Assembly: GCA_016787725.1 (NCBI GenBank)
Contig: JAEUTZ010000022.1
Location: 62,001-126,000, forward strand
DNA: 64,000 nucleotides
Origin: Cyclobacteriaceae bacterium
GTDB lineage: Bacteria > Bacteroidota > Bacteroidia > Cytophagales > Cyclobacteriaceae
Direction of reading: 5' to 3'
Shown here: positions 8,069 to 30,504 of the stretch, one piece after another
Position numbering within the stretch: the stretch's first letter is position 1
Layout of the letters: every line of letters starts with the position of its first letter
Made by a program: the position numbers and the translations under genes
The notes under the pieces: generated by a model
Seen by the model: the letters and a program-made list of their open reading frames with translations, nothing else
Databases searched by the model: none
What the model was told of the DNA's origin: nothing

Positions 8069-8147
8069 AAGTTCAGATTCCATTGTTAACCTTATTACCT
8101 CTAGGGCACGATCTGACTAAAATCATTTTTTTTCATCGATTAAAACC

Positions 8148-8155
8148 TAATTTTG
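8148..8155 (+). promoter_or_regulatory. Bacteroidota-type -7 box (TAATTTTG) upstream of the haloperoxidase gene
   Basis: TAATTTTG matches the Bacteroidota -7 consensus TAnnTTTG and lies 23 bases before the next ATG. A T-rich stretch sits about 20 bases upstream in place of a clear TTG -33 element. It suggests the gene at 8178 can be transcribed separately from the FG-GAP operon. Confidence 0.5.
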
Positions 8156-8177
8156 CATCTTTTAACCCACTTCCTTC

Positions 8178-9515: not shown

Positions 9516-10591
9516 AACCAATCCGGCCGCTTATAGGAACTGTTCCGGTAAAGGGTGCAGTCGTAACAGTATTGTGGATACGAAGGTGTTTGAAAGAAGC
9601 GGGACTCGTAATACGTGCAATCTTCAAATGGAAAAAATACCCGGTACGGAAAATCAGTAGGGTACAATACAAACCGATCCATGCTTTCATGGGTAGCCTG
9701 AAAGTAGCCCCACACTTTTTCAGATGGGTTGTTGATGTTCTTGATATTGCCAATAATTTGAGCGGGTGGTGTGTCAAAGATGGATCCGGTTTGATTAGCC
9801 AGAATATTTACCTTTCGCCAATATTCATACGCCTCGTCTGTAATAGAAGATTGGTAGGTGTTGAAATAATGCTTTTCAAGGAATGAACGATCCACAATCC
9901 GGGCACAAACCAATTCTTTTTCAATCCGGTCAATGGTCAGTCGCGTACCATCTAAAAGTGCTACGCGGTTAGGATCGGCTTTTTGATACACGAAACAAGG
10001 TGGGGGAACGAAACCAAACGGGTCCGGAAAATCGGTAGGCGTTAGTAAAAACACTTCCTCTACGGTCCAGTTGATATAGCGATCTTTCCATTCTTGTGGG
10101 AGTGTTGTTGAGGCGTAGATGTGTACAAATTTTTCGGGTAGATTGGCGCCATCGGAATCGGTAACTACTTTCTCAACAAATTCATGCTTTACTTCAACCG
10201 GTGGTGCAAAGGATGGCATGACTTCCGGTGTTGATCGGTACGTTGCTCCATTTGTCAACGTTATTTCCACATGATATGTTTGCCCGGGCACACCCTGAAA
10301 GCCCGGTACGGAATAGACTCCAAGGGATGTTTCTTGAAAAAAGAATGTTGTACCATTCTGATTCAGCAGCAAAATGCTGGCGCCACTTTCTGGTGATGGT
10401 AGCTGTTTATAGGCAGTTCGACCAATTTCAATCATGGTTCGGTCTGGCAAGGAACTTACCTGACCTGAAATTACAACCTGGCCACCCTTATTCTCAACGA
10501 TCACTTCAATTGGGCTGATGCAACTCAGTAGTAATAGAAATGGCAGTACTCGGGTAATTGCTTTTGTCAGTAAAAATCCCACCGTCTTCAT
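9512..10591 (-). CDS. DUF4249 domain lipoprotein
   Basis: A 359-residue protein with a lipoprotein signal (LLLSC, Cys near residue 24). It has the DUF4249 pattern: an N-terminal beta-sandwich region with VISGQVS, YHVEITLTNG and YRSTPEVMP, and a Cys-rich C-terminus (CYDCTLYRNSSYKRPDWF) typical of the family. The family is nearly confined to Bacteroidota and is found beside TonB-dependent receptors. Here the start codon overlaps the receptor's stop codon (TGATG), so the two are cotranscribed and translationally coupled, receptor first. The likely role is an accessory surface lipoprotein of the receptor; the ligand is unknown. Confidence 0.85.
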   Translation of the reverse strand: MKTVGFLLTKAITRVLPFLLLLSCISPIEVIVENKGGQVVISGQVSSLPDRTMIEIGRTAYKQLPSPESGASILLLNQNGTTFFFQETSLGVYSVPGFQGVPGQTYHVEITLTNGATYRSTPEVMPSFAPPVEVKHEFVEKVVTDSDGANLPEKFVHIYASTTLPQEWKDRYINWTVEEVFLLTPTDFPDPFGFVPPPCFVYQKADPNRVALLDGTRLTIDRIEKELVCARIVDRSFLEKHYFNTYQSSITDEAYEYWRKVNILANQTGSIFDTPPAQIIGNIKNINNPSEKVWGYFQATHESMDRFVLYPTDFPYRVFFPFEDCTYYESRFFQTPSYPQYCYDCTLYRNSSYKRPDWF

Positions 10592-13014
10592 CAGAACTTA
10601 AAGTTATATGTGAGAGAAGGAAGCGCTGAACCAAGTATCGAAAGTTGATACGGTTTGGGTATTAAGTAAAGTGCAGCAGGCCGTTGATAAAAGACGGAAT
10701 AGGCGTTTTCCCGACCAAATAAATTATAAATCGAAAAGGTCAGCGAATCATCCAACGTGCGGACCACATTTCCGATGGTTAACGAAACATCAAGCCGGAA
10801 GTACGATGGAATTTTATATTGATTGCGGAGTGAATAGAGCGGCACCACTGTTCCATTCACGATGTAACTTGATTCGAGAGCAGTGAGTGGTCGACCGGAT
10901 GTGTAGGATGCCGTTACAGAAAAGGCTCCATTGTGCATGGTTTTGCGATTCAAAACCAGATTCGCGATATGAGGTTTGTTAAAATTGGACGCGAACCAAT
11001 TCCCATCGTTTATTGACTCAGAGGTGGTGGTAGCAGCCACCTGCACTTCAGTTTGCGAATACGTGTAAGAAAACCAGCCGGTCCAACGCCCTTTTATTTT
11101 CCGAATCAGAAATTCTGTTCCGTAAGCACGTCCATCGCCCGATAGTAATTCTGTCTCTAGATGTGGATTAACATAGAGCTCTGGAAAATCTTTATACTCA
11201 ACTAGATTTTGCGTACGCTTATAAAAAAATTCAATGGATGTCTCCCAAGTGTTATTCTTTATATTCCAGAAATACCCAGCTGAATAGTTATCGGCAATCT
11301 GCGGGGGTAAGTAGGAGGTACTCACCTGCCAAAGATCAACAGGCGTGGCGGAAGCCGTGTTGCTGATTTGGTGAATGTATTGTCGCATCCGGTTGTAGCT
11401 GACCTTTACCGACTGACTATTAAACGTATTGATGCGAATGGCAAGCCGGGGTTCAAGTCCGCCAAAGGAAGAGATTTTCGACATTGAGTTGTAGAGTACA
11501 GTATCCGTGATGGTGCTCTCATTCTTTGGTTGATCAGGCGCGTAGACAAAAACGGAATCAGGCCCCAGATGGAGGTATCCGGAGAGGCGTAATCCGGCTG
11601 AGATACCGATGCGTTCACTTACCTCGAACTCATCATTGACGAACAGAGCAGCTTCCCATCCATTGTCTTTATTTATGCGTTCGGAAATTACAGCCGAAGC
11701 GGAACCATATCCTGTCAAAACCTCATCCTGCGGTATGTATAAAATGGATTCCAGGCCCATCGTCAAAACGTGTTGTTCATTCGGGATATAGTTCACAGCT
11801 GGTTTTACCTGAAGGTACCGCATCGTATTAAAAAGTTGCGATGCCGATTGCCCAACCGGATCGATCAATTTGGTTTGAAACTGACCGTATGATACGCTGA
11901 CTGTGGGCGAAGCTTCACGATTGGCATATCCCGTCCATCGTGTCTGCACCAACAGGCTATTCCAGACGTATCCAAACCGGTCCGAAAATTCGAAATCATC
12001 ATGACTCTGATACAGATTGAATTCAGCAGTACTGTTTTCGCTGAACCGGTGATGGAGCGTCAGGTAAAAGTCGTTAAACGAAGCTTTACTGTTCCGGACG
12101 TTCGGATCCGATACTTGTTTGAGAATCCAATTCGGGTACGCGAGCCGACCGGACAACAAGATGGATGATGTTGATTTTTTAATAGGTCCTTCGGCCGAGA
12201 AACGTGCCGAGATAGGACCAACTCCCCCTTGATAGCTCCATTTTTCATAATCACCATGCAGCGTATTGATTTCTAAAACCGAGGAAGCCCGTCCACCCAG
12301 TTGAGCCGGTACTGTTCCTTTGTAGAGACTGAAATCGCGAACAATGTCCTGATTAAATGAAGACACGAATCCCAACGCATGCGAAGTGTTAAAAATGGGG
12401 GCATCATTCAGTAGGATCAGATTTTGGTCAGGCCTTCCACCCCGTACGTTGAAACCGGACGCGGCTTCACCCACGGTTGTTACTCCCGGCATCAACTGTA
12501 AACTTTTTACGATATCAACTTCTCCTAACAACATGGGTAAGGTCTTGATTTCACTTACCCCGAGGGTCGTCAATCCCGTCAGGCTTTGTTTGATATTACT
12601 GTCAATGGGACGAGCCGTGACTACCAATTCATCAAGATCAATGACTCCCTCCTCCAATTCAATGTCAAATACACCACCGGAGAGTACTTTAATCTTATAG
12701 TAACCCGTTATATAACCAACATGCCGCACCGAGATACGATAATTACCAGGAGGCAATTCGAGGATGAAGCGTCCATTCACATCAGAGTAATTGAAATATT
12801 TAAACTGATCGGCTGAAATTGTGGCACTGGTAAGGGGGATACCCAATCCTTTTGCTCGTACATGGCCCGTTACAATTACATTGACGAAACGATCCGCCAA
12901 ACGGGTTGAATCACCAATGGTTTGGATCACCTTGTCTTGCCAGGGATCCTGGCCCAACAGGAGTTGACTGATGCAACATAATCCTGAAATAAAAATACCT
13001 CGTAATCCCTGCAT
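10591..13014 (-). CDS. TonB-dependent receptor with carboxypeptidase-like N-terminal domain
   Basis: An 807-residue outer-membrane receptor. It has a signal peptide (cleaved near LLLGQ), a carboxypeptidase-regulatory-like beta-sandwich at ~45-130 (VTGHVRAKGLGIPLTSATI...), a plug domain at ~135-250 (FNVRGGRPDQNLILLNDAPIF) and a beta-barrel to the terminal Phe (LTYNFKF). It imports a ligand across the outer membrane powered by TonB. It is shorter than SusC proteins and has no SusD partner; the DUF4249 lipoprotein downstream is its partner instead. A divergent 197-base region separates it from the maltose/glycerol operon, so shared control is possible but unproven. Confidence 0.88.
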   Translation of the reverse strand: MQGLRGIFISGLCCISQLLLGQDPWQDKVIQTIGDSTRLADRFVNVIVTGHVRAKGLGIPLTSATISADQFKYFNYSDVNGRFILELPPGNYRISVRHVGYITGYYKIKVLSGGVFDIELEEGVIDLDELVVTARPIDSNIKQSLTGLTTLGVSEIKTLPMLLGEVDIVKSLQLMPGVTTVGEAASGFNVRGGRPDQNLILLNDAPIFNTSHALGFVSSFNQDIVRDFSLYKGTVPAQLGGRASSVLEINTLHGDYEKWSYQGGVGPISARFSAEGPIKKSTSSILLSGRLAYPNWILKQVSDPNVRNSKASFNDFYLTLHHRFSENSTAEFNLYQSHDDFEFSDRFGYVWNSLLVQTRWTGYANREASPTVSVSYGQFQTKLIDPVGQSASQLFNTMRYLQVKPAVNYIPNEQHVLTMGLESILYIPQDEVLTGYGSASAVISERINKDNGWEAALFVNDEFEVSERIGISAGLRLSGYLHLGPDSVFVYAPDQPKNESTITDTVLYNSMSKISSFGGLEPRLAIRINTFNSQSVKVSYNRMRQYIHQISNTASATPVDLWQVSTSYLPPQIADNYSAGYFWNIKNNTWETSIEFFYKRTQNLVEYKDFPELYVNPHLETELLSGDGRAYGTEFLIRKIKGRWTGWFSYTYSQTEVQVAATTTSESINDGNWFASNFNKPHIANLVLNRKTMHNGAFSVTASYTSGRPLTALESSYIVNGTVVPLYSLRNQYKIPSYFRLDVSLTIGNVVRTLDDSLTFSIYNLFGRENAYSVFYQRPAALYLIPKPYQLSILGSALPSLTYNFKF

Positions 13015-13211: not shown

Positions 13212-14537
13212 ATGGTAACCAAGCCGAGTCTAACCTTTTCTCAAATCATCAACATGAACCTCGGGTTCTTTGGTATCCAATACAGTTTCGGGTTACAACA
13301 GAGTGCAGTCAATCCAATTTACGACATGTTGGGGGCACAACCCCACGAAATTCCCTTACTGAATCTGGCCGGACCGGTTACAGGCTTGATTGTACAACCT
13401 ATTATCGGGGCCATGAGTGATAAAACCTGGAGCCCAAGGTTCGGAAGACGGAAACCCTATTTCTTCGTGGGGGCTTTGTTGTGCAGTATTGCCTTGTTCT
13501 TTTATCCTTTTAGCAGTGCTTTATGGATGGCTGTAGGATTGCTCTGGATTCTGGATGTTGGCAACAACACGGCCATGGAACCTTACCGGGCCTTCGTTGC
13601 AGATAAACTAAATGAAGCGCAACGACCGCTCGGCTTCCAGGCGCAGAGTTTCTTCACCGGGTTTGGTCAAACATTGGCAAATGTTTCTCTTTTTGTATTT
13701 CCGATCTTGATTGCCGGCAGGACAGGGGCCTTGCCCAACTGGGTTTATGCGTCCTTTTTCCTAGGGGCCATCTGTTCGATGGGCTCGATTTGGTGGAGCA
13801 TGCGCACCACCCCCGAGATTCCGCCCACCGAAGAAGAATTAGCGCTGATGAAGGCAACTCCATTAAATGTTTTCTCGCCCTTTATTGAAATTGGAAAAGC
13901 GATTGGCAGTATGCCAAAGGTAATGTGGCAATTGGCATTCGTCTACCTGTTTCAGTGGTATGCTCTATTTTGTTATTGGCAAAATGCTTCCAAAAGCATC
14001 GCCTGGTCTGTTTGGAAGACAACGCCTGCCAATGGAGAATTGTATGAACAGGCCGTTAGTTGGACAGGCCTTGTAAACGGATGGTATAACATTGTCACTT
14101 TTTTAAGCGCCTTTGCGTTGGTCTGGTTTGTCAAGCGAACTTCACCCAAAATGGTGCATTTTACTTGCCTCGCCTTAGCGGCTGTTGGCTTGCTAACATT
14201 CCCCTTCATTGAAAATAAATACCTCCTCTTTCCGGCAATCACTGGTTTTGGAATCGGATGGGCCAGCATGATGGGCATTCCGTATTTGCTGGTAGTCAAT
14301 AATATACCGAAAGAGCGATATGGAGTTTATATGGGCATTGTCAATATGATGATCGTTATCCCAATGATTTTACAGAACTTAACTTTTGGATATATACTGC
14401 AGGAGTTTTTAGGAAATAATTCAGCCTATGCCGTTGCGTTTGCCGGTGTCTTGTTGATTATTGCAGCCGTTGCAACCTTGTTAATTTCAAGCACCCAAAA
14501 ACCGACAGAGAATATTTCATTTTCATCTTCACATTAA
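13212..14537 (+). CDS. MFS sugar transporter, SLC45/GPH-like (alpha-glucoside uptake)
   Basis: A 441-residue, roughly 12-helix permease. The N-terminus (GFFGIQYSFGLQQSAVNPIY) and the loop GAMSDKTWSPRFGRRKPYF match SLC45-type sucrose/maltose:proton symporters and related Bacteroidota maltose transporters, where the GRRKP loop follows the second helix. It should import maltose or another alpha-glucoside across the inner membrane. It is the first gene of a run of ten codirectional genes; the next starts 8 bases on. The substrate is inferred from the GH65 and GH13 enzymes downstream; sucrose or a glucosyl-polyol is also possible. Confidence 0.8.
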   Translation: MVTKPSLTFSQIINMNLGFFGIQYSFGLQQSAVNPIYDMLGAQPHEIPLLNLAGPVTGLIVQPIIGAMSDKTWSPRFGRRKPYFFVGALLCSIALFFYPFSSALWMAVGLLWILDVGNNTAMEPYRAFVADKLNEAQRPLGFQAQSFFTGFGQTLANVSLFVFPILIAGRTGALPNWVYASFFLGAICSMGSIWWSMRTTPEIPPTEEELALMKATPLNVFSPFIEIGKAIGSMPKVMWQLAFVYLFQWYALFCYWQNASKSIAWSVWKTTPANGELYEQAVSWTGLVNGWYNIVTFLSAFALVWFVKRTSPKMVHFTCLALAAVGLLTFPFIENKYLLFPAITGFGIGWASMMGIPYLLVVNNIPKERYGVYMGIVNMMIVIPMILQNLTFGYILQEFLGNNSAYAVAFAGVLLIIAAVATLLISSTQKPTENISFSSSH

Positions 14538-14545
14538 TATCAAAT

Positions 14546-15250
14546 ATGAATCCTTACCTCGCAGAATTTTTAGGAACGATGCTGCTCATCCTTCTGGGCG
14601 AAGGAGTAGTAGCAGGGGTTGTTTTAAAAGGTACCAAATCTGAGAATGCAGGCTGGCTTACGGTCTGTATTGCGTGGGGGTTGGGGGTATCGTTGGCCAT
14701 TTTTGCAGTGGGTGAAATCAGCGGAGCTCATCTAAATCCAGCCATTACACTCGCGCTCGCATTTACTAATAATTTTGAGTGGAACCTTGTGCTTGGCTAT
14801 TGTCTTGCTCAGGTAGCGGGAGCTTTTACCGGGGCAACATTGGTTTGGATATTCTATGGTCCTCATTGGAAGGTAACATCAGATGCGTCATCTAAGTTGG
14901 CTGTGTTTTCTACCGCCCCTGCCATAAGAAATGCCCCAGCCAACTTAATTAGTGAGGCATTAGCCACCGCGTTGTTAGTATTTGCCATCATGTTTATTGG
15001 AGTGAACGAATTTACCCATGGACTAAAGCCGCTGGTAGTTGGGTTATTGATCGTAGCAATCGGATTAAGTTTAGGAGGGACGACCGGTTTTGCCATTAAC
15101 CCTGCCCGCGATTTGGGCCCGCGCATCGCACATGCCATCTTGCCAATTCATGGCAAGGGTTCTTCCGATTGGGGTTATGCGTGGATTCCAGTCGTTGGAC
15201 CTATTGTTGGCGGGATTTCCGGGGCATTGCTGTACCAATTGATTTTCTGA
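14546..15250 (+). CDS. glpF: glycerol facilitator (MIP/aquaporin family)
   Basis: A 234-residue six-helix channel with both NPA half-helices: SGAHLNPAITLALA at ~63-76 and FAINPARDLGPR at ~183-194. The Asp after the second NPAR is the mark of glycerol-conducting aquaglyceroporins as opposed to water-specific aquaporins. It allows glycerol to diffuse into the cell, where GlpK traps it. The gene order glpF-glpK-glpD with gaps of about 20 and 3 bases supports the assignment. What is unusual is the setting between an alpha-glucoside transporter and alpha-glucoside enzymes. Confidence 0.92.
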   Translation: MNPYLAEFLGTMLLILLGEGVVAGVVLKGTKSENAGWLTVCIAWGLGVSLAIFAVGEISGAHLNPAITLALAFTNNFEWNLVLGYCLAQVAGAFTGATLVWIFYGPHWKVTSDASSKLAVFSTAPAIRNAPANLISEALATALLVFAIMFIGVNEFTHGLKPLVVGLLIVAIGLSLGGTTGFAINPARDLGPRIAHAILPIHGKGSSDWGYAWIPVVGPIVGGISGALLYQLIF

Positions 15251-15254
15251 TTAA

Positions 15255-16763
<1,509 letters not shown>

Positions 16764-16766
16764 CAC

Positions 16767-18392
16767 TTGAACCGGTCAGCAAACATAGAAGCACTAAAAA
16801 AGGAATCCTTCGATTTATTGATTGTCGGTGGGGGCATTACGGGTGCCGGAATTGCCTTGGATGCCGCGGCCCGCGGTTTGAAGACGGCTTTGGTGGAAAA
16901 GAATGATTTTGCATTTGGTACCAGCAGTCGTTCAACGAAATTGATTCATGGTGGTTTGCGCTATTTGAAACAACTGGAGTTTGCTTTGGTGAAGGAAGTG
17001 GGTAGCGAACGTGCAATTGTACATCGATTGGCCCCACACCTGGTGGTTCCTGAAAAGATGTTGTTACCACTCTATGAAAAGCGCGGACTGGGTTATTGGC
17101 TCACTTCGGTGGGGCTGAAGATCTACGATTGGTTGGCTGGGGTGAAAGCGGAAGATCAACGCAAGATGCTTACGCGACTCCAAACATTGAATTACGAACC
17201 ATTGTTGAAGTCGGATGATGTGCGGGGTGGCGCGATCTATGCCGAGTATCGAACAGATGATGCTCGGTTGACCATTGAAATCATGAAACTGGCGGCTCAT
17301 AAAGGCGCACTGGTAGGAAATTATTTAAGTGTAACGGATTTTCACTATACCAATAATCAAGTCACTGGAGTTCAGGTCACCGACTTAATGACGAAGGGAT
17401 CCTTTTCAATCAAAGCCACCATTGTTGTCAATGCAACGGGACCCTGGGTGGATGAACTGCGGGTGATCAATCAATCCCGGCAAGGCAAGCAATTACACCT
17501 CACCAAGGGAGTTCACATTGTGGTGCCGTTTCATCGGCTTCCGGTCAGACAGGCGATTTATTTTGATGTACCCGATGGTCGGATGATTTTTGCGATACCA
17601 CGGGGGCGCATCACCTACATCGGTACTACCGATACGGATTATACCGGGGATAAAGAGAATGTGACGACCACCCTGGATGATGCGCATTATCTGATACATG
17701 CGGTCAATGAGACGTTTCCGTCAGCCTTATTAACGTTTGCCGATATTGAATCAAGTTGGGCGGGGCTTCGGCCCTTAATACATGAGGAGGGTAAATCTGC
17801 ATCAGAACTTTCGAGAAAGGATGAGATTTTCGAATCCGATACCGGACTAATTTCCATAGCCGGTGGAAAGTTAACAGGCTATCGGAAGATGGCCGAACGG
17901 GTGGTGGACCGGGTGATGGAGTTAAAGTTTGAGGAACGCAATGTAAGACCTTGCGAAACTGAACAAATGATCTTGCCCGGAGGCGATTTCAAAAGTTACT
18001 CGGAGGTAAAAAAGCTGGAAGCAGAATTAGCCGGACGGTTGGGTGCATTAAATCTGCGTGGTAATGAAGCAACCAATCTGGTTCATTTGTATGGCCGGCA
18101 GTCCTTACAGATCGTAGACCGATTAGAGGCCCATCATACAGGTCAGCCGGAGTGTGACTTGATTTTGGCAAAGGCGTGGTTTGCGATTACCTTCGAAATG
18201 GCAGTAACACCCTTGGATTTCATAACTCGCAGGAGCGGGTTACTGTATTTTAACCATCCTAAAATTTCGCGCTGGGTTCAGCCCGTGGTTGATTATTTTG
18301 CAACTGAGTTTAGATGGAGTGAGGAGGAGAAGGAACAGCAATTCGACCAAGTAACTAAGGCTCTTCAATCGGTGATCCATTTTACCCAATGA
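16767..18392 (+). CDS. glpD: aerobic glycerol-3-phosphate dehydrogenase
   Basis: A 541-residue FAD-dependent enzyme that oxidises glycerol 3-phosphate to dihydroxyacetone phosphate and passes electrons to the quinone pool at the inner membrane. Residues ~16-50 form the dinucleotide-binding fold (LLIVGGGITGAGIALDAA), followed by the GlpD block FGTSSRSTKLIHGGLRYL and IYFDVPDGRMIFAIPRG; the C-terminal DAO_C region ends the protein. The start is an unusual TTG at 16767, only 3 bases after the glpK stop; no ATG occurs before the Rossmann motif, so TTG is well supported. The last 4 bases (ATGA) overlap the next gene. Confidence 0.93.
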   Translation: MNRSANIEALKKESFDLLIVGGGITGAGIALDAAARGLKTALVEKNDFAFGTSSRSTKLIHGGLRYLKQLEFALVKEVGSERAIVHRLAPHLVVPEKMLLPLYEKRGLGYWLTSVGLKIYDWLAGVKAEDQRKMLTRLQTLNYEPLLKSDDVRGGAIYAEYRTDDARLTIEIMKLAAHKGALVGNYLSVTDFHYTNNQVTGVQVTDLMTKGSFSIKATIVVNATGPWVDELRVINQSRQGKQLHLTKGVHIVVPFHRLPVRQAIYFDVPDGRMIFAIPRGRITYIGTTDTDYTGDKENVTTTLDDAHYLIHAVNETFPSALLTFADIESSWAGLRPLIHEEGKSASELSRKDEIFESDTGLISIAGGKLTGYRKMAERVVDRVMELKFEERNVRPCETEQMILPGGDFKSYSEVKKLEAELAGRLGALNLRGNEATNLVHLYGRQSLQIVDRLEAHHTGQPECDLILAKAWFAITFEMAVTPLDFITRRSGLLYFNHPKISRWVQPVVDYFATEFRWSEEEKEQQFDQVTKALQSVIHFTQ

Positions 18393-19573
18393 AAAAAGTC
18401 ATCTTGTATTTGTTAGTGACGGTTGGTCTCGCCATACTGTTTGGTTTTGAGATCGCTAGTGTATACTACATCATGCCTTTTCCGGGTAGCCAGCGGCAGG
18501 AGTCAATTGACTTTGCCTACTACCTTGTAAACCACATCCACTATTTTAGGGTGGCTGGAATTTTTCTTTTGGTCTACCCGGTTTTTCATTTTATAAGGCA
18601 TGGTACCACCACACATCGGGTTTTGGTAGGATCGGTGGCCCTGCTGTACCTGATGGTTTATTATCAGGTAAATTACCGGATGCAGGCAGACGTTATGTTT
18701 CTTCAGCCAGGACAAGTTAACCTGGTAGGTTCGGATGAAAATAAAGTGAAGCGAAGGAAATTGATTATTGGTGTCGCCTATCAGGGGCTTGCACGAGCTT
18801 ATCCGATTGAAATTATTGGGTATCATCATCAGGTTCGGGATACGATTGCTGGAAATCCGATTATGGTAACCTATTGTACGGTGTGCCGGACCGGAAGGGT
18901 GTATAAACCAATCGTTAAAAATGAACCGGATAGTTTTCGCTTGGTGGGTATGGATCATTTCAATGCCATGTTTGAAGACAGTCGTACAAAAAGCTGGTGG
19001 CGTCAGGTGAGTGGGGAGGCGATCGCTGGACCATTGAAGGGATCTCTGTTGGACGAAATCCCATCTCAGCAGATGAGTTTATTAGCCTGGATTGATCGCC
19101 ATCCCAACACGCTGATTTTGCAGGCTGATTCAACTTTTAATGAAGCTTATCAAGGTTTGGAGAAATTTGATGAAGGTACTATTGAAAGCGGGTTGGAGCG
19201 AAGAGACACTCTTTCGTGGCAAGAGAAATCCTGGGTAATTGGTGTTCAACTGGGAATGACCTCCAAAGCGTATGACTGGAATAATTTGCTTGCCCACCGG
19301 GTAATTAATGACAGCATTGGAAATACTCCGGTACTACTTACCCTTGAACCAGACAGTCTTTCTTTTCATTCCTGGAATCGAGATTCGCTTACATTTTCAG
19401 TACAGGATGGTTATTTGCAGGACCATCAAACCTTGTCGCGATGGAATTGGCGGGGCCAATGTGTAGAGGGTCGATTAACCGGTGCGCAACTGAACCCCAT
19501 TCAATCCTATCAGGAGTTCTGGCATTCGTGGCAAACTTTTCACCCAACCACCTTGCGGTTTCAACCTCATTAA
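18389..19573 (+). CDS. DUF3179 domain membrane protein
   Basis: A 394-residue protein with about three hydrophobic segments in its first 100 residues (near 5-27, 48-66 and 70-90), then a soluble domain of the DUF3179 family: the CxxC-bearing VTYCTVCRTGRVY (~161-173), FRLVGMDHFNAMFEDSRTKS and WWRQVSGEAIAGPL. The family is of unknown function, found in many phyla, and the conserved Cys pair suggests a redox or metal site. The ATGA overlap with glpD shows translational coupling, and the next gene begins 3 bases later, so it is a true member of the operon. Its link to glycerol or sugar oxidation is untested. Confidence 0.85.
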   Translation: MKKVILYLLVTVGLAILFGFEIASVYYIMPFPGSQRQESIDFAYYLVNHIHYFRVAGIFLLVYPVFHFIRHGTTTHRVLVGSVALLYLMVYYQVNYRMQADVMFLQPGQVNLVGSDENKVKRRKLIIGVAYQGLARAYPIEIIGYHHQVRDTIAGNPIMVTYCTVCRTGRVYKPIVKNEPDSFRLVGMDHFNAMFEDSRTKSWWRQVSGEAIAGPLKGSLLDEIPSQQMSLLAWIDRHPNTLILQADSTFNEAYQGLEKFDEGTIESGLERRDTLSWQEKSWVIGVQLGMTSKAYDWNNLLAHRVINDSIGNTPVLLTLEPDSLSFHSWNRDSLTFSVQDGYLQDHQTLSRWNWRGQCVEGRLTGAQLNPIQSYQEFWHSWQTFHPTTLRFQPH

Positions 19574-19576
19574 ACG

Positions 19577-21226
19577 ATGATCAAGCAGGCCTGGTGGAAA
19601 GAAGCGATCGTGTATCAGATTTACCCTCGCAGTTTTAAAGATAGCAATGGTGACGGCATCGGAGACCTGCGAGGAATTATTGAAAAGTTGGATTACATTG
19701 AAAGCCTGGGTGTGGATGCCGTGTGGCTCAATCCGATATTTAGATCGCCCAACGATGATGGGGGGTATGACATCAGCGATTACTACACAATTCAACCAGA
19801 GTTTGGCACGATGGCCGACTTCGATGAGTTGCTGAAGGGTTTGCACCACCGGAAGCTGAAGTTAATCATGGATCTGGTACTCAACCATTCATCCGATGAA
19901 CACGAATGGTTTCAGAAGTCAAGAGTATCCTTGGACAATCCATACCGCAAGTATTATTTCTGGAAGCAGGGCAAAGAGGGGAAGGCTCCCAATAATTGGC
20001 CTTCTTTCTTTGGTGGGAGCGCCTGGCAGTTGGATGACGATAGTGGAGAATATTATCTCCACTTATTTTCACGCAAGCAACCGGATTTAAATTGGGAGCA
20101 CCAGCCGCTTCGTAATGAAGTACATCAGCTGATGAAATTCTGGCTTGACAAAGGAGTGGATGGGCTGCGACTGGATGTGATTTCAGCCATTTCAAAACGA
20201 GTTGATTTCCCCGATACTGATACTGAAGATTTTAACGAGACGATCCGTAGATATTATGCGAACGGTCCCCGACTTCAGGAATTTATTTCAGAAGCACGGG
20301 AGAAAGTGTGGAATCATTATGATGTAATGACGGTAGGGGAAGGACCCGGCATTACACCCCAAAATGCCATTGCCTACCTCGATGAAAAGAAGGGGTTAAA
20401 TATGATTTTTCATTTCGGTCATATGTTTATAGACCAAGGGCCGGGCGGCCGATTCGACCCCATCCCATGGACGTTGCACGAATTCAAAAAAGTTTTTAAG
20501 ACCTGGGATGATGCATTTGCCAGTCATGGCTGGGGCAGTGTGTTTCTCGGCAATCATGACTTTCCGCGCATGGTCTCCCGGTGGGGTAATGATCAGGAAT
20601 ATTGGCAAGAATCTTCTACACTCTTGTGTACTCTCTTGTTGACCATGCGTGGAACCCCTTTCATTTTTATGGGCGATGAAATTGGAATGACCAATATGGT
20701 ATTAAGTTCCATTTCGGAGTCAAGAGACATTGAGACCCAAACGGGATGGCAGGAAGCCCAAAAGCGAGGGCTAACCGAACCTCAATTTCTGAAGATCGCG
20801 AACTACTCCGGAAGGGATAATGCCCGTACACCCATGCAGTGGGATTCCGGCAAGGAAGCTGGGTTTACCAATGCTCAACCCTGGATGCCCGTGAACCCGA
20901 ATTATAACCGATTAAATGTTCAACTCCAGGCGGGTACCAGCCAATCCGTATTAAACTATTTCCGGGCGTTAACCCGGATGCGGAAAAGCCACGCAGTCTT
21001 TGCCCATGGAACATACAACCCTATGGATACCAGAGACGAAAACTTGTTCATTTATTTCCGTGAGTGGCAGCAAGAAAAAATGCTGATCGTACTTAATTTT
21101 TGTAATGAGGTTACTATCTTACCCAAAGAAGTACACGCAATGCTCGCCAAACGGTTGATCGGAAATTATCCGGAGAGGAATTCGCCCGAACTGAGACCGT
21201 GGGAAGCCGGGGTGTATCAATTATAG
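19577..21226 (+). CDS. GH13 alpha-glucosidase, probable oligo-1,6-glucosidase type
   Basis: A 549-residue TIM-barrel glucosidase (conserved start WWKEAIVYQIYPRSF, then DSNGDGIGDLRGI). The catalytic triad is visible with almost the same numbers as Bacillus oligo-1,6-glucosidase: nucleophile Asp200 in DGLRLDV, acid/base Glu255 in TVGEGPG, and Asp328 in LGNHDFPR. The residue after the nucleophile is Val201; in this subfamily Val favours alpha-1,6 bonds while Thr/Ala favours alpha-1,4. No signal peptide is seen, so it acts in the cytoplasm on imported oligosaccharides, releasing glucose. It would complement the GH65 phosphorylase downstream. Trehalose-6-phosphate hydrolase is less likely because there is no PTS gene here. 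Confidence 0.88.
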   Translation: MIKQAWWKEAIVYQIYPRSFKDSNGDGIGDLRGIIEKLDYIESLGVDAVWLNPIFRSPNDDGGYDISDYYTIQPEFGTMADFDELLKGLHHRKLKLIMDLVLNHSSDEHEWFQKSRVSLDNPYRKYYFWKQGKEGKAPNNWPSFFGGSAWQLDDDSGEYYLHLFSRKQPDLNWEHQPLRNEVHQLMKFWLDKGVDGLRLDVISAISKRVDFPDTDTEDFNETIRRYYANGPRLQEFISEAREKVWNHYDVMTVGEGPGITPQNAIAYLDEKKGLNMIFHFGHMFIDQGPGGRFDPIPWTLHEFKKVFKTWDDAFASHGWGSVFLGNHDFPRMVSRWGNDQEYWQESSTLLCTLLLTMRGTPFIFMGDEIGMTNMVLSSISESRDIETQTGWQEAQKRGLTEPQFLKIANYSGRDNARTPMQWDSGKEAGFTNAQPWMPVNPNYNRLNVQLQAGTSQSVLNYFRALTRMRKSHAVFAHGTYNPMDTRDENLFIYFREWQQEKMLIVLNFCNEVTILPKEVHAMLAKRLIGNYPERNSPELRPWEAGVYQL

Positions 21227-21245
21227 CTAAATTCATAATCTACCG

Positions 21246-22151
21246 ATGGATAATCTATGGGGAATTGACCTGGGCGGCACCAAAGTAGAGGGAGCAGTAC
21301 TGAAGTCAGCATCCGATCCACAAGTATTATTTCGAGATCGCTTGCCAACCGAGGGGCACAAGGGGTACGACCATGTCATGGGTCAGATAAAAAAGGTGGT
21401 TGATAAAATGGAAGCCACTTTGGGTTATAAGCCTGCCAAAATCGGAATTGCGACACCAGGTACACTCGATCCGGGGCAGGGGTTGATGAAAAACAGCAAC
21501 TCCACCAGTTTGAATGGCAAGCCTCTTAAAAGTGATTTAGAGAAATTATTGGGGATTGAACTCTTTATGGCCAATGATGCCAATTGCTTCGCATTAGCCG
21601 AAGCTAGCATGGGTGCTGCCAAAGAGAAATATCCACACGCCAAAGTAGTTTTCGGAGTGATCATGGGTACCGGTGTGGGCGGTGGTGTAGTGGTTGATGG
21701 AAGAGTAATCAATGGCCTGCAAGGAATTGGTGGGGAATGGGGACATAATTTTCTTGATGAATCCGGGGGCCCTTGCTATTGCGGGAAAACTGGTTGTGTA
21801 GAGAAAGTGTTGGCAGGCCCTGCCCTCGAACGATACTATGCTTCAATCAGTGGTCAAAGTAAGAACCTGAAGGATGTGTATGATCTGTACCGTAGTGGAG
21901 ACTCCTTCGCCATACAAACGATGAACCGATTGACACATTTTTTTGGGTTAGCCCTGAGTGTGGTGGTGAACATCCTGGATCCGGACGTCATTGTCATCGG
22001 AGGTGGAGTGGGCAATATAGATCTAATTTATTCGGAAGGCATGAAGTCGTTAGAGAAGTATGTCTTTAACCACCGATTGGATACTCCGGTGCTCAAGCCT
22101 AAATTGGGCGATAGTGCCGGAGTATTTGGTGCTGCTTTCCTGGCCAATTAA
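21246..22151 (+). CDS. ROK-family sugar kinase (probable glucokinase or fructokinase)
   Basis: A 301-residue kinase of the ROK family: N-terminal phosphate loop WGIDLGGTKVEGAVL, catalytic block ANDANCFALAEA, and the zinc site GEWGHNFL...CYCGKTGCVE with the expected His and three Cys. It has no HTH domain, so it is an enzyme and not a ROK repressor. It likely phosphorylates free glucose released by the GH13 and GH65 enzymes. It lies 19 bases after the GH13 gene. Mannose or fructose as substrate cannot be excluded from sequence. Confidence 0.85.
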   Translation: MDNLWGIDLGGTKVEGAVLKSASDPQVLFRDRLPTEGHKGYDHVMGQIKKVVDKMEATLGYKPAKIGIATPGTLDPGQGLMKNSNSTSLNGKPLKSDLEKLLGIELFMANDANCFALAEASMGAAKEKYPHAKVVFGVIMGTGVGGGVVVDGRVINGLQGIGGEWGHNFLDESGGPCYCGKTGCVEKVLAGPALERYYASISGQSKNLKDVYDLYRSGDSFAIQTMNRLTHFFGLALSVVVNILDPDVIVIGGGVGNIDLIYSEGMKSLEKYVFNHRLDTPVLKPKLGDSAGVFGAAFLAN

Positions 22152-22187
22152 TTTCTTCATGAAACGATCAGAAAAACCTAACCCGAT

Positions 22188-23156
22188 ATGAAACGAATAG
22201 CTGTTGTTGGTCCCATCCCGCGCGATCATATTATCACCCACACGGGCGACCTTATTCAAAAGTGGGGTTGTGTTACCCATCCGGTAATTGCCTTATCAGT
22301 ATTGGCCGGTGATCAGTTGGAGATTATTCCAGTGTGTCACTTGCGGGTGGTCGACCACGACAACGTGGAAGAAGTATTCCAGGGGTATAAGGGGATTAAC
22401 CTCAAACACCTTACCACCAGCAACGATCAGGGCGATATTATCAGCTTAAAGTTTATTGATCAGAATAATCGGTTAGAACGGCAAACCGGATTCATGGACC
22501 CGATCCTGCCGTCTGATTTTTCGGAATTGCTGGATTGTGATGCGTTCGTTTTTATTCCTATCAGTGATTATGAAATTTCCTTGGATACTTTGAAGTATCT
22601 GAAGAAAAAAAGCAAAGGCACAATCATTTTTGATGCGCACGGACCTACCACTGCCTGTCTTGTCAATGGCGAACGACAACGCAAGTTCTGGATCGACCGG
22701 GATTTGTGGCTTCCTTTTATTGATGTTTTAAAAATGAATCTGGAGGAAGCGCACGCATCCTGGTTTAAAAAGGAGTATGAGAGTGAGGAATTTAATTTGA
22801 GTGACCTGGAGCGTGACGAAATCCGCGCCTTTGCGGAGCATTGTATTTCTTTGGGTGTTAAGTGTGTCTATGTCACACTCGATTCCAGAGGCTGCCTTAC
22901 GTATTTTAAGAAGCGAGGTAAAATTATTGAAGAAATGGTTCCTTCCATCAAAGTGGATAAAGTGATTGATACCACAGGGTGTGGCGATTCCTTTGCCGGG
23001 GGGTTATCCTATGGCCTGGTTCAAAACCCTGGCGATTATATTGGTGCCGCCAAATACGCGAATGCTTTTGGGGCACTTCGAACGCAAGGCAAAACGTTTG
23101 ATGTCTTTAAATCCCTGGAAGAGACCAACAACATCATTGCGAGGGGTCACGTCTGA
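22188..23156 (+). CDS. PfkB-family carbohydrate kinase of unknown substrate
   Basis: A 322-residue ribokinase-fold protein. The C-terminal PfkB signature is clear (DTTGCGDSFAGGLSYGL, catalytic Asp retained, Cys in place of the usual Ala). The N-terminal GG signature (GGKGANxA in ribokinases) is absent: the region reads KWGCVTHPVIALSVLAGD. The start VVGPIPRDHI is also unusual. The substrate pocket must therefore differ from ribokinase or fructokinase. It sits between the ROK kinase and beta-phosphoglucomutase genes, so a sugar or polyol of this pathway is the likely substrate. Confidence 0.78.
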   Translation: MKRIAVVGPIPRDHIITHTGDLIQKWGCVTHPVIALSVLAGDQLEIIPVCHLRVVDHDNVEEVFQGYKGINLKHLTTSNDQGDIISLKFIDQNNRLERQTGFMDPILPSDFSELLDCDAFVFIPISDYEISLDTLKYLKKKSKGTIIFDAHGPTTACLVNGERQRKFWIDRDLWLPFIDVLKMNLEEAHASWFKKEYESEEFNLSDLERDEIRAFAEHCISLGVKCVYVTLDSRGCLTYFKKRGKIIEEMVPSIKVDKVIDTTGCGDSFAGGLSYGLVQNPGDYIGAAKYANAFGALRTQGKTFDVFKSLEETNNIIARGHV

Positions 23157-23186
23157 ATTCAACTTGTTTTACGGATAAATTACTAC

Positions 23187-23834
23187 ATGATTAGAGCTGC
23201 GATTTTTGACCTTGATGGTGTGATTGTTGACACCGCTCACTACCACTACATTGCGTGGAAACGATTGGCCAGTGAGTTTGGAATCACGCTAACCCCGGTC
23301 CACAATGAGTTGCTGAAAGGAGTAAGCCGGGTACGATCGCTTGAAATCATTCTTTCTTTAGGAAACGTTGAGGTATCGGAAGCTCAGAAAGTCCAGTTGG
23401 CAGAGAAAAAAAATAATTGGTTTGTTGAGTATATTGAATCCATTCGCCCGGAAGAAATATTTCCCGGGGTTAAAGAGTTAATTCAACAGCTTCGTAAGAA
23501 GAAGCTCAAAATTGGTCTTGCCTCAAGTAGTAAGAATGCCCCTCGCGTGATTGAGCTTTTAGGCATTGGCCCGGAGTTCGATACATTAGTAGATGGAACC
23601 ATGATTACCCATACGAAACCTGATCCTGAGATTTTTTTGCTGGCCGCCCATAAACTCGGAATTGATCCTGCTGATTGTGTCGTTTTTGAGGATGCTGAAG
23701 CAGGTGTGGAAGCCGCCTTGGCAGCAGGAATGAAATGTGTGGGCGTGGGGTCTCCGGAACAACTTGGAAAAGCAAGTAAAATAGTGGCCCGAACGGGAGA
23801 TTTCAAAATAGAATGGCTGAACGATTTAAAATAA
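23187..23834 (+). CDS. pgmB: beta-phosphoglucomutase
   Basis: A 215-residue HAD-superfamily enzyme that converts beta-D-glucose 1-phosphate to glucose 6-phosphate. The DxD motif is at Asp8/Asp10 (IFDLDGVIVDT), the same numbers as Lactococcus beta-PGM. The block LKGVSRVRSL matches the LKGVSREDSL block of beta-PGMs and separates it from other HAD phosphatases; SSSKNAP and the KPDPEIF/VFEDAEAGVEA motifs complete the core. It is placed 26 bases before the GH65 phosphorylase whose product is beta-glucose 1-phosphate, which makes the function very likely. Confidence 0.9.
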   Translation: MIRAAIFDLDGVIVDTAHYHYIAWKRLASEFGITLTPVHNELLKGVSRVRSLEIILSLGNVEVSEAQKVQLAEKKNNWFVEYIESIRPEEIFPGVKELIQQLRKKKLKIGLASSSKNAPRVIELLGIGPEFDTLVDGTMITHTKPDPEIFLLAAHKLGIDPADCVVFEDAEAGVEAALAAGMKCVGVGSPEQLGKASKIVARTGDFKIEWLNDLK

Positions 23835-23860
23835 AGTGACGATATAGATTAACCAACGTT

Positions 23861-26146
23861 ATGAAGCAATACCTGAAACATCACGAGTGGCAGATCATTG
23901 AAGAAGGTTTGAATCCACATTACAACAAAATTTCAGAAAGTGTTTTTAGTCTGGGGAATGGCCGCATGGGGCAACGGGCAACCTTTGAAGAAGATTATTC
24001 CGGAGAAACCCATCAAGGGAGTTATGTAGCCGGGGTGTACTACCCTGATAAAACCCGGGTGGGCTGGTGGAAGAATGGCTATCCTGAATATTTTGCCAAG
24101 GTATTGAATGCCCCGAGTTGGATTGAGATCAGGATCAAAATCGGAGATCAGGTATTGGATCTAGCCAAATGCAACGTGGAATCATTTACGCGTGTGTTGG
24201 ATATGAAGCAAGGATTGTTGCATCGTGTATTTACGGCAACCTTACCCGATGGAAAAAAGGTGCGTGTTGATTCTAAGCGATTTTGTTCTATGGCGGATGG
24301 TGAAATTGGAGCGATCCGATACGAAATTACCGCTCAGAATTTCGATGCACCGATTTCGATTACCTTGCCTGTGGATGCCGATGTGGTCAATAAAGATTCT
24401 AATTACGATGAAAAATTCTGGGAAGAAGTGCACAAGGAAGCCGAAGTGGGACAAGCCTTGGTTACCGCCCAAACTAAAAAGACATTATTCCATGTTTGTA
24501 CAGGCATCCAATATGTGCTGGAGCAGAATGGAAAGCGAATCGAGGCAAAAGCGACTGTTAATCTTCGAGAGAAGTATGCAGACAATGTAGTAACAACAGA
24601 ACTAAAACAGGGTAGTCCTTTAGTGATTTATAAGTATGCAGCCATTCTCTCATCTGAGAATCATCCGAAAGATAAGTTGGTAGCACATGCGAAAGCTAAA
24701 TTAAAGGAAGCAGTGGCTGCAGGATTCGATCAACTGTTTGCCAATCACACCCGTGTGTGGGCCCATAAATGGGAGGAGTGCGACATCACCATTGAAGGGG
24801 ATGTGGCTGCCCAGCAAGGAATCCGTTTCAATATCTTTCAATTAACGCAAACTTATACCGGAGAAGATGAGCGATTGAATATTGGGCCCAAAGGATTTAC
24901 GGGTGAAAAATATGGAGGGAGTACCTACTGGGATACGGAGGCTTATTGCTTACCATTTTTTCTGAGCACGGCAGAGCCCAAGGTAGCTCGCAATCTGCTG
25001 GTGTATCGGTATAAACACCTCGGTAAGGCCATTGAAAATGCTAAGAAACTTGGATTCAAGGATGGCGCTGCCTTTTATCCATTTGTAACCATGAATGGAG
25101 AAGAGTGTCACAATGAGTGGGAAATTACGTTTGAAGAAATTCACCGCACCAGTGCCATGGCCTACGCGATGCGCGATTATATTGATTACACGGGCGATAA
25201 AGATTACCTCGCAGAATACGGGCTGGAGGTGTTGATTGGTATTGCCCGGTTTTGGAACCAACGGGTAAACTGGTCTGATGAAAAGAGTAAGTTCGTAATT
25301 CTGGGGGTTACCGGGCCGAACGAGTATGAGAACAACGTTAACAATAACTGGTACACCAACTATCTCGGAGCGTGGACACTTCGGTTTGCGACTCAAGCAG
25401 TAGAATTTGTGAAGACGGCACATCCTAAGCGGTATGCGGAGATTGTAGCCAAAACAAATTTCAACGATAAACCGGAAATGGATCGCTGGAAACATATTGT
25501 AGAAAATATGTACTACCCATATGACCCGAAACGCAAAGTGATTTTACAGCAAGATGGTTTTTTGGATAAAGAAATAATACGGGTTAAAGATCTGAAAGCT
25601 GAAGACAGACCGCTTAATCAAAAGTGGTCCTGGGACAGGATTCTGCGGTCGTGTTTTATCAAACAAGCTGATGTATTACAAGGTATATATTTGTTTGAAG
25701 ATGATTTTGATACCGAAACAATACGCAGGAATTTTGACTTTTACGAACCCATGACAGTCCATGAATCTTCCTTGTCGCCCTGTGTGCATGTGATTCTGGC
25801 CAGTAAAATTGGTTACAAGGAGCAAGCCTACGAATTTTATTTACGCACTGCACGCCTTGACCTGGACGATTATAACAACGATACAGAAGAAGGCTGCCAC
25901 ATTACCTCGATGGCCGGTACCTGGATGAGTTTAGTAAAAGGGTTTGGCGGCATGCGGGTTCGAAATGGTCAACTTCATTTCAATCCTTTTATTCCCGATC
26001 AGTGGAAATCCTATTCATTCCGGTTGGAGTTTAGGGACCGGGTTATTAAAGTGAAGGTAGGGAGCGGAGGGAAGGTAGAGACCAAATTGGAACACGGAGA
26101 TCCTCTGGAAGTAATCATGAATGGAAGTCCGATTCAGTTGAGTTAG
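23861..26146 (+). CDS. GH65 maltose phosphorylase
   Basis: A 761-residue (alpha/alpha)6-barrel phosphorylase that cleaves maltose with phosphate into beta-D-glucose 1-phosphate and glucose. The general acid is Glu488 in TGPNEYENN, essentially the position known in Lactobacillus maltose phosphorylase (Glu487). The acceptor loop at 417-425 reads HNEWEITFE, the loop 3 sequence known for maltose phosphorylases and different from that of trehalose or kojibiose phosphorylases. The products feed pgmB and the ROK kinase of the same operon. No signal peptide: cytoplasmic. Glucosylglycerol or another glucoside is possible but less supported by the loop. Its last 132 bases overlap the convergent DUF1232 frame. 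Confidence 0.9.
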   Translation: MKQYLKHHEWQIIEEGLNPHYNKISESVFSLGNGRMGQRATFEEDYSGETHQGSYVAGVYYPDKTRVGWWKNGYPEYFAKVLNAPSWIEIRIKIGDQVLDLAKCNVESFTRVLDMKQGLLHRVFTATLPDGKKVRVDSKRFCSMADGEIGAIRYEITAQNFDAPISITLPVDADVVNKDSNYDEKFWEEVHKEAEVGQALVTAQTKKTLFHVCTGIQYVLEQNGKRIEAKATVNLREKYADNVVTTELKQGSPLVIYKYAAILSSENHPKDKLVAHAKAKLKEAVAAGFDQLFANHTRVWAHKWEECDITIEGDVAAQQGIRFNIFQLTQTYTGEDERLNIGPKGFTGEKYGGSTYWDTEAYCLPFFLSTAEPKVARNLLVYRYKHLGKAIENAKKLGFKDGAAFYPFVTMNGEECHNEWEITFEEIHRTSAMAYAMRDYIDYTGDKDYLAEYGLEVLIGIARFWNQRVNWSDEKSKFVILGVTGPNEYENNVNNNWYTNYLGAWTLRFATQAVEFVKTAHPKRYAEIVAKTNFNDKPEMDRWKHIVENMYYPYDPKRKVILQQDGFLDKEIIRVKDLKAEDRPLNQKWSWDRILRSCFIKQADVLQGIYLFEDDFDTETIRRNFDFYEPMTVHESSLSPCVHVILASKIGYKEQAYEFYLRTARLDLDDYNNDTEEGCHITSMAGTWMSLVKGFGGMRVRNGQLHFNPFIPDQWKSYSFRLEFRDRVIKVKVGSGGKVETKLEHGDPLEVIMNGSPIQLS

Positions 26147-29659: not shown

Positions 29660-29740
29660 GGATGTGAAGGTTTAAGGTTGTAGAAATATGGAATTTATAT
29701 TAATTGGTTGCAAGCAGAAGGGGAAGAGTGGTAAAGATTT

Positions 29741-30436: not shown

Positions 30437-30456
30437 GAAAGAATTCTTAGCTAATA

Positions 30457-30475
30457 TATGGTCATTTTGACTATA
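30457..30475. promoter_or_regulatory. candidate operator for the NUDIX regulator
   Basis: TATGGTCATTTTGACTATA is a 19-bp palindrome with 8-bp arms around TTT and one mismatched pair. It lies between the divergent regulator gene (start 30436) and xylB (30505), just upstream of the xylB -7 box, where bound protein would block RNA polymerase for xylB and could affect the regulator's own promoter. Confidence 0.6.
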
Positions 30476-30481
30476 AGTAAA

Positions 30482-30489
30482 TATTTTTG
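30482..30489 (+). promoter_or_regulatory. -7 box (TATTTTTG) of the xylB promoter
   Basis: TATTTTTG fits TAnnTTTG and lies 15 bases before the preferred ATG of xylB at 30505. The possible TTG start at 30487 falls inside this box, which argues against it. The palindrome directly upstream overlaps the place of the -33 region. Confidence 0.5.
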
Positions 30490-30504
30490 TTAGAATTCAA
30501 TCGT

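Follow-up and report, generated by a model that had tools for sequence, protein, structure and literature searches.

Ten genes of Cyclobacteriaceae that appear to form one conserved operon for the breakdown of maltose and isomaltose and the use of glycerol

Related systems and how the locus compares

The pathway of maltose phosphorylase and beta-phosphoglucomutase (beta-PGM), of the Lactococcus and Lactobacillus type, is described in the available part of PMC7608592. The locus considered here lies in a window of 64,000 nucleotides, the whole stretch of DNA analysed from a Cyclobacteriaceae bacterium, and shares with that pathway a GH65 enzyme with the HNE and K-V-M-N-E-S motifs, a beta-PGM, and a glucose-kinase candidate. 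It differs in adding glpFKD, a DUF3179 gene, a PfkB kinase, and an SLC45-like MFS carrier, all in one run. A literature search for a maltose phosphorylase/beta-phosphoglucomutase operon in Bacteroidetes found no paper, and one for an operon of glycerol kinase and maltose phosphorylase gave no such operon among the titles returned; the term "glycerol kinase" is absent from the available parts of the main texts of PMC11787520 and PMC10873239.

Upstream of the operon, outside the window, stand genes for a GH31 enzyme, a LacI regulator, a SusC-like TonB receptor, and a SusD_RagB protein, which together we take to be a Sus-type alpha-glucan polysaccharide utilisation locus of the Bacteroidota. The likeness extends to the one relative examined in this respect (L149), where the beta-PGM, GH65, and PfkB genes adjoin SusD, SusE, and a secreted alpha-amylase-type protein. 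Unlike a Sus-type locus, the present one also includes a glycerol cassette besides FG-GAP/UnbV and PAP2 genes, and in this genome it is interrupted by a divergent gene pair. The third comparison is with glucosylglycerol catabolism through BsGGP of family GH65, the GH13_18 GGP of Marinobacter, or GghA, which would likewise give glycerol and activated or free glucose. In contrast to those systems, the operon GH65 enzyme scores far lower against BsGGP (262 bits) than against maltose phosphorylase (764), and the GH13 enzyme is, on the matches listed, not GH13_18-like.

Architecture of the operon

The original prediction placed ten genes here with gaps of -4 to 36 bases, and all ten open reading frames were found on the forward strand, at 13212-26146 (Table 1), separated in 5' to 3' order by 8, 10, 3, -4, 3, 19, 36, 30, and 26 bases. 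Its gene names agree with Pfam and NCBIfam, glpD at the level of the family only. The ten genes are probably carried on a single transcript. Across 51 related loci, neighbouring operon genes that keep the same order have median gaps of 15-63 bases, and these short gaps, together with the recurrence of the order in relatives, indicate that the arrangement is not due to chance. Scans for sigma-70-type promoters and for terminators gave matches no more frequent than in shuffled sequence. With the thresholds used, the genome's sole matches to GH65, glpK, and the glpD-type enzyme all sit in the operon.

Table 1. Coordinates in the window and supporting matches of the operon genes and the genes that precede them
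Feature	Position	Strand	Evidence
MFS transporter, SLC45/sucrose-symporter-like	13212..14537	+	PF07690 80.5 bits; TIGR01301 84 bits
glpF, glycerol facilitator	14546..15250	+	TIGR00861 202 bits, cut-off 171; NPARD
glpK, glycerol kinase	15261..16763	+	TIGR01311 732.1 bits, cut-off 590.35
glpD-type FAD glycerol-3-phosphate dehydrogenase/oxidase	16767..18392	+	PF01266, PF16901
DUF3179 protein	18389..19573	+	PF11376 183 bits
GH13 oligo-1,6-glucosidase-like enzyme	19577..21226	+	9u7v 630, 1uok 623 bits
ROK sugar kinase	21246..22151	+	PF00480 222 bits; CxCGxxGCxE box
PfkB kinase, distinct subfamily	22188..23156	+	PF00294 64 bits, C-terminal part only
beta-phosphoglucomutase (beta-PGM)	23187..23834	+	TIGR01990 244.1 bits, cut-off 189.4
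GH65 maltose phosphorylase	23861..26146	+	1h54 764 bits; PF03636, PF03632, PF03633
Divergent DUF4249 and TonB-receptor-like gene pair	9512..13014	-	Pfam
Two FG-GAP/UnbV_ASPIC proteins and PAP2 protein	1474..9515	+	Pfam

Enzymes of the glucan and glycerol branches

The GH65 enzyme has N, central, and C domains all above cut-off, and its central domain (PF03632) is matched once in the whole genome. Its loop 3 stretch, ECHNEWEITFEEIHR, has the same letters as the maltose phosphorylase of L. brevis (1h54) and holds HNE, the maltose-phosphorylase motif of this loop (Nakai et al., cited in PMC8537180). The motif is found in 56 of the 60 GH65 family members, the remaining four being unmatched by the search pattern. 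The maltose-phosphorylase signature KV[MF]NES occupies positions 64, 392, 394, 402, 416, and 585 (PMC8537180), and alignments read by eye place K-V-M-N-E-S there in the operon enzyme, with positions 394 and 416, which border alignment gaps, placed by continuity and by way of the 1h54 loop. By these published motifs and its score the enzyme is predicted to be a maltose phosphorylase; 2-O-alpha-glucosylglycerol phosphorylase (4ktp/4ktr) was rejected on score and on a loop 3 that is unlike in length and letters. The beta-PGM lies above its equivalog cut-off.

For the GH13 enzyme, the closest structures among the matches listed (60 of 79) are oligo-1,6-glucosidases. A valine after the nucleophile aspartate is the specificity rule of GH13 oligo-1,6-glucosidases, for which a literature search found no paper, and the operon enzyme has it, reading GLRLDVIS. 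Region II is GLRLDVIS/TAI in 23 of 26 family members; one has GFRLDAFQFA and two are unmatched by the pattern. The enzyme passes one NCBIfam phosphotrehalase subfamily model (555 bits, cut-off 535) and fails the phosphotrehalase equivalog model (623 bits, cut-off 799), and it most closely resembles an oligo-1,6-glucosidase. A GH13_18 glucosylglycerol or sucrose phosphorylase was rejected, as no molecule named sucrose phosphorylase occurs among those same listed matches. The ROK kinase, whose closest solved structures are N-acetylglucosamine kinases and glucokinases, is likely a glucokinase. The MFS carrier likely imports maltose and isomaltose; its match to the sucrose/proton symporter model TIGR01301 is weak, well under the cut-off of 511 bits.

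On the glycerol side, an aspartate after the second NPA-R (NPARD) marks GlpF glycerol facilitators, a box that the operon glpF shares with each of the 38 family members in the clustered loci. The glpK product exceeds an equivalog cut-off, and no second glpK match in the genome reaches E<=1e-100. The glpD-type enzyme, the only match at E<=1e-150, passes the Pfam DAO and DAO_C models and lies under both equivalog cut-offs (GlpD 342 of 360 bits, GlpO 495 of 840), so that the name is best taken as a family-level call. The DUF3179 protein begins with a hydrophobic segment and carries the CxxC motif TYCTVCRTGR, and TYCTVCR[TS]GR is found in all 29 DUF3179 family members listed.

A proposed glucan-dissimilation arm with a glycerol pathway

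The explanation that we moderately favour is that the operon is the cytoplasmic dissimilation arm of an alpha-glucan utilisation locus and a stable home of the one glycerol pathway detected in the cell. In this scheme the MFS carrier would take up maltose and isomaltose-type sugars, the GH65 enzyme would cleave maltose by phosphorolysis to glucose and beta-glucose 1-phosphate, and beta-PGM would convert the latter to glucose 6-phosphate. Alpha-1,6-linked oligosaccharides would yield glucose through the GH13 enzyme, and glucose would be phosphorylated by the ROK kinase. Glycerol would reach dihydroxyacetone phosphate by way of GlpF, GlpK, and the GlpD-type enzyme, so that the glucan and glycerol inputs would converge on glycolysis. 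Co-expression would make sense if glycerol reaches the cell along with a glucan of the starch or glycogen type, perhaps from lysed algae or cyanobacteria. In keeping with this explanation are also the kojibiose hydrolase homologues of related loci and the persistence of the glp link in further genera, both described below. The dual use that was first offered as a fallback is the best fit; the GH65 and GH13 enzymes look like starch-sugar enzymes, and the glp genes are separable from them. If the genes are co-expressed, these Bacteroidota would handle glycerol as a companion of alpha-glucan and not as a separate nutrient, and the prediction of carbon use from Bacteroidota genomes would change.

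The two FG-GAP/UnbV_ASPIC genes and the PAP2 gene close the upstream susCD cluster, the start of which falls outside the window (in L111). The PAP2 protein is presumably vanadium-haloperoxidase-like; a literature search on UnbV, SusD, and vanadium found nothing. The DUF4249/TonB-receptor-like pair on the reverse strand stands between operon and cluster in this genome. In 21 of the 28 related loci with PAP2, that gene lies directly (<300 bp) before an operon gene, and the upstream cluster runs straight into the operon. A putative LacI operator lies by susC (L111:9661-9674), with a second copy bearing one mismatch (L111:8553-8566). No copy of this motif occurs upstream of the operon, and co-regulation with susCD is therefore not supported in this genome. 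Across the genome the motif is hardly more frequent (12 sites) than the control (10).

Conservation and history of the link

The claim that the two pathways rarely form one unit is borne out in the phylum sample: 36 of 395 genomes have both glp and maltose phosphorylase genes, and in just two of these do the genes lie no more than 30 kb apart, namely the window's own genome and one with a convergent arrangement (G445). Among relatives the gene order recurs, as the original prediction had proposed to check. Of the 51 related loci covered in full, 20 carry glpFKD and maltose phosphorylase around the PfkB gene and eight have all ten genes, and the linked layout extends to further genera of the family (G077, G085, and Chryseolinea). 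Within Cyclobacteriaceae-type bacteria, Chryseolinea included, this is an old arrangement with a modular build. GH65 follows in 41 of the 51 loci, as against a complete glpFKD in 20, and four have glpF without glpK. Because many loci keep PfkB-beta-PGM-GH65 without the full glp set, joint use of glycerol and maltose is not obligatory.

This modularity could also reflect history alone, a rather unlikely account in which a glpFKD cassette landed in an ancestral alpha-glucan locus and persists since operon separation is slow, with no joint physiology. It would explain why glycerol genes come and go (missing, relocated, or detached in many loci) while the maltose core stays constant, why the collinear link appears only in the window's own genome within the phylum sample, and why glpFKD is elsewhere in relatives such as L096, L097, L100, L104, L105, L107, and L108, where it sits beside a gene that we take to be lpxC. 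On the glpK tree, just two changes of the linked label are forced by starred branches, and 14 of the 35 inner branches lack support. Against this, the fully linked label needs six changes on that tree compared with a shuffled mean of 13.0 (none of 500 shuffles as low), and the link spans several genera. The 45 genomes with both GH65 and glpD (G135 included) include seven whose operon is broken between glpK and glpD, a count that leaves out G038, whose contig starts inside glpK. After the split glpD stays with DUF3179-GH13-ROK-PfkB-beta-PGM-GH65, and the MFS gene stays with glpF-glpK in all five split genomes whose other half was retrieved, which also argues against a purely historical link.

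An improbable alternative extends the original prediction's unifying substrate to any single compound of alpha-glucose and glycerol (glucosylglycerol, or kojibiosylglycerol from glycolipids or teichoic acids), from which GH13, GH31, or the kojibiose hydrolase of relatives would free glucose and glycerol for their separate kinases. It would account for glpFKD within an alpha-glucoside operon in several genera, for a kojibiose hydrolase homologue in the same gene run in 16 of the 51 loci (the one tested scores 800 bits to FjGH65A), and for glpFKD adjoining the ROK kinase in two genomes with no GH65 match (G047 and G028; L106 and L109); yet the maltose-phosphorylase motifs and score of GH65 and the likeness of GH13 to oligo-1,6-glucosidases disfavour it, the window's genome has one GH65 match and hence no kojibiose hydrolase of that family, and loci that lack glp genes still retain maltose phosphorylase and beta-PGM. 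Hydrolysis of glucosylglycerol by GH13 or the upstream GH31 enzyme is possible.

A PfkB subfamily that accompanies GH65

The PfkB kinase has a ribokinase fold, and its comparison gives TM about 0.7 to many different ribokinase-fold enzymes. None of 13 listed NCBIfam models of named kinases (ribokinase, fructokinase, 1-PFK, and others) is matched at cut-off, the best being D_ribokin_bact with 45 of 300 bits. The unexpected part of the locus is the co-occurrence of this subfamily with GH65, a GH65 phosphorylase also being present in 66 of the 70 distinct genomes that have it. A doubtful proposal is that the protein founds a kinase family serving the GH65 phosphorylase/beta-PGM route, phosphorylating either the released glucose or beta-glucose 1-phosphate, the latter to beta-glucose 1,6-bisphosphate. 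The bisphosphate is the bolder of the two options; it is the priming cofactor of beta-PGM, which is said to be its sole source in L. lactis in the available part of PMC7608592. With no curated kinase model matching at cut-off, a subfamily that tracks inverting alpha-glucoside phosphorylases offers a sharp and cheap biochemical test.

Loci with PfkB elsewhere count against the proposed kinase family and weaken the notion of a kinase tied only to an adjoining GH65 gene. The gene does not adjoin GH65 in two named Flavobacteriaceae loci (L181 and L182), and in G263, G275, and G376, all three of another family (f26), it lies away from GH65 and follows genes that we take to be DUF4197-like and purU-like.

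Gene content and proposed function

The operon is a real, conserved and lineage-specific form of a known locus type. Its ten open reading frames, separated by 8, 10, 3, -4, 3, 19, 36, 30 and 26 bases, are assigned by Pfam and NCBIfam to MFS, MIP/GlpF, GlpK, FAD glycerol-3-phosphate dehydrogenase, DUF3179, GH13, ROK, PfkB, beta-PGM and GH65, which bears out the original prediction of ten genes with gaps of -4 to 36. GlpK and beta-PGM pass their NCBIfam equivalog cut-offs, and GlpF carries the NPARD box. The dehydrogenase reaches neither the GlpD nor the GlpO equivalog cut-off, so the glpD-type name is a family-level call. The operon holds the genome's sole matches to GH65, glpK (E<=1e-100) and the glpD-type enzyme (E<=1e-150). 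Promoter-like and terminator-like sites occur no more often than in shuffled sequence, so we can only infer that the ten genes form one transcript.

The GH65 protein scores 764 bits against the L. brevis maltose phosphorylase, 434 and 386 bits against kojibiose phosphorylases, and 262-263 bits against 2-O-alpha-glucosylglycerol phosphorylase. The maltose-favoring loop suggested earlier is upheld by a loop-3 stretch, ECHNEWEITFEEIHR, that the L. brevis enzyme shares without a mismatch; the immediately preceding letters differ in places. The loop pattern is matched in 56 of the 60 GH65 proteins in the fetched loci and has no match in the other four. De Beul et al. (PMC8537180) define six specificity positions, with K-V-M-N-E-S as the maltose-phosphorylase motif; placed by eye on GH65 alignments, these positions in the operon enzyme also read K-V-M-N-E-S.

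The closest relatives of the GH13 protein are oligo-1,6-glucosidases (630 and 623 bits). It passes the NCBIfam phosphotrehalase subfamily model (555 versus a cut-off of 535) and fails the phosphotrehalase equivalog (623 versus 799). The nucleophile aspartate is followed by valine, a marker of alpha-1,6 preference. For ROK, the nearest matches are N-acetylglucosamine kinases and glucokinases.

Dual use, with two inputs into one operon, is the best and most likely reading. GH65 would split maltose into glucose and beta-glucose 1-phosphate, the latter passing to glucose 6-phosphate via beta-PGM; GH13 would release glucose from alpha-1,6 oligosaccharides, and ROK would phosphorylate glucose. GlpF, GlpK and the glpD-type enzyme would take glycerol to dihydroxyacetone phosphate. 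The pathways may have been joined because glucan and glycerol arrive together at these bacteria. The stronger rival is that the joining is purely historical. The original prediction favored one compound of glucose and glycerol, such as glucosylglycerol, with dual use as its alternative. The alternative stands; the single compound is possible but disfavored, given the GH65 scores and motif and the oligo-1,6-glucosidase-like GH13. It requires an activity of which no sign was found, and the maltose core is retained in loci without glycerol genes.

Conservation and linkage

Gene order was compared in neighborhoods from relatives and in 76 named PfkB loci. Fifty-two named loci had flanks of at least 9.5 kb upstream and 3.3 kb downstream (the 24 with shorter flanks were left out of the counts); dropping L182, a Flavobacteriaceae locus without synteny, left 51. 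The gene order, whose conservation the original prediction proposed to check, recurs among them: ROK directly precedes PfkB in 43 and beta-PGM-GH65 directly follows it in 40. Upstream lie DUF3179 (31 loci), glpD (28), glpF (24), glpK (20), GH13 (18), a kojibiose-hydrolase homologue (16) and MFS (13). Together, glpFKD and GH65 occur in 20 of 51, and the complete set in at least 8, a lower bound because MFS may lie beyond the 10-kb flank. Four loci keep glpF without glpK; the two covered by whole-genome search (L131 and L135, Ohtaekwangia koreensis) have a glpK of 55% identity elsewhere.

A GH65 of at least 57% identity is present in 62 of 147 relatives (any match, 84; the 22 with paralogues of roughly 27-37% identity alone are not counted). 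Among the 62, 54 have glpK, which lies no more than 15 kb from GH65 in 18, and 45 have glpD, which is this close in 26; the unlinked cases include some on contigs too short to assess linkage. GH65 has glpD but no glpK nearby in eight genomes: G038, whose contig starts inside glpK, and seven true splits (G012, G025, G037, G044, G049, G061, G062). The other half, fetched for five of the seven, is always MFS-glpF-glpK (L092, L093, L095, L098, L101), as likewise in G042 (L099). On a glpK tree of 38 rows, the fully linked label takes 6 changes, and none of 500 shuffles (mean 13.0) gave so few, with starred branches forcing just 2 and 14 of 35 inner branches unsupported.

The claimed rarity of a maltose-glycerol unit holds in an evenly drawn phylum sample of 395 genomes. 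Maltose-phosphorylase-like GH65 occurs in 66, 36 of which also have glpK, and the two genes lie within 30 kb in only 2. One is the window's genome; in the other, G445, glpK-glpF and GH65 are convergent. In two further loci (L106, L109), ROK directly follows glpF-glpK-glpD, and both genomes are without a GH65 match.

Upstream cluster and regulation

The window starts within the first FG-GAP/UnbV protein, followed by a 192-aa gene, two more UnbV genes, a PAP2 gene (presumably haloperoxidase-like), a divergent DUF4249/TonB-receptor pair and the operon. UnbV genes lie upstream in 21 of 51 loci and PAP2 in 28. Since PAP2 lies less than 300 bp before a same-strand operon gene in 21 of those 28, cluster and operon were probably once one unit, later interrupted here by the divergent pair. 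The LacI-type palindrome was not found before the ten-gene operon and is hardly enriched genome-wide (12 sites versus 10 control sites).

Features of the window and of other fetched loci (L111, upstream of the window in the same genome)
Feature	Location	Remark
Ten-gene operon	window 13212-26146	+ strand
GH31, LacI regulator, SusC, SusD, first FG-GAP/UnbV protein	L111, upstream of window	
SusC-SusD, then three FG-GAP/UnbV_ASPIC proteins and PAP2	L111:9843-17893 and window 1474-9515	
LacI-type palindrome CGCAATCGGTTGCG (CGCAANCGNTTGCG)	L111:9661-9674	between lacI and susC
One-mismatch copy of palindrome	L111:8553-8566	by GH31 start
DUF3179 gene	window 18389-19573	
Sugar locus: MFS carrier, NUDIX/NrtR-AraR-type regulator, FGGY kinase	window 28340-31998	neighboring; parts recur downstream in relatives
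PfkB relative (50%) adjoining kojibiose-phosphorylase-like GH65 and beta-PGM-like gene	L186:8555-12633	record titled Rhodobacteraceae; genes resembling sugar ABC transporter nearby (by eye)

PfkB and DUF3179

PfkB matches named PfkB families weakly, and its predicted structure is a ribokinase-type fold (pLDDT 82.5; TM about 0.7 to many enzymes). Candidate activities are phosphorylation of glucose, of beta-glucose 1-phosphate or of another sugar or a nucleoside.

GH65 phosphorylase is found in 47 of 51 PfkB-bearing genomes among the 147 relatives, the other four being assemblies of 73 to 87% completeness. It is also found in all 16 PfkB genomes taken from named loci, including 11 in which GH65 does not adjoin PfkB. 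A maltose-type enzyme of at least 57% identity is present in 15, and the L186 genome has a GH65 of 32% identity with kojibiose-phosphorylase-like motifs by eye. In the phylum sample, all eight PfkB genomes have GH65, versus a base rate of 66/395. Pooled, with an overlap of at least five genomes recognized by identical coordinates, the three sets give 70 distinct PfkB genomes, 66 with GH65. PfkB also precedes beta-PGM-GH65 in another genus (G461, L191), more distant but within the family.

These counts are inflated by relatedness. Within the genus, GH65 occurs in 45 of 49 genomes with PfkB versus 4 of 14 without. Three of the eight phylum matches come from another family, f26, and say little because f26 supplies 38 of the 66 GH65 genomes. 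In these three (L200, L202, L203), the PfkB relative follows what we take to be DUF4197-like and purU-like genes instead of GH65, a placement that counts against a GH65-bound role.

DUF3179 often accompanies glpD and/or the ROK-PfkB block in relatives, and the motif TYCTVCR[TS]GR is present in all 29 members listed, from the window and relatives.
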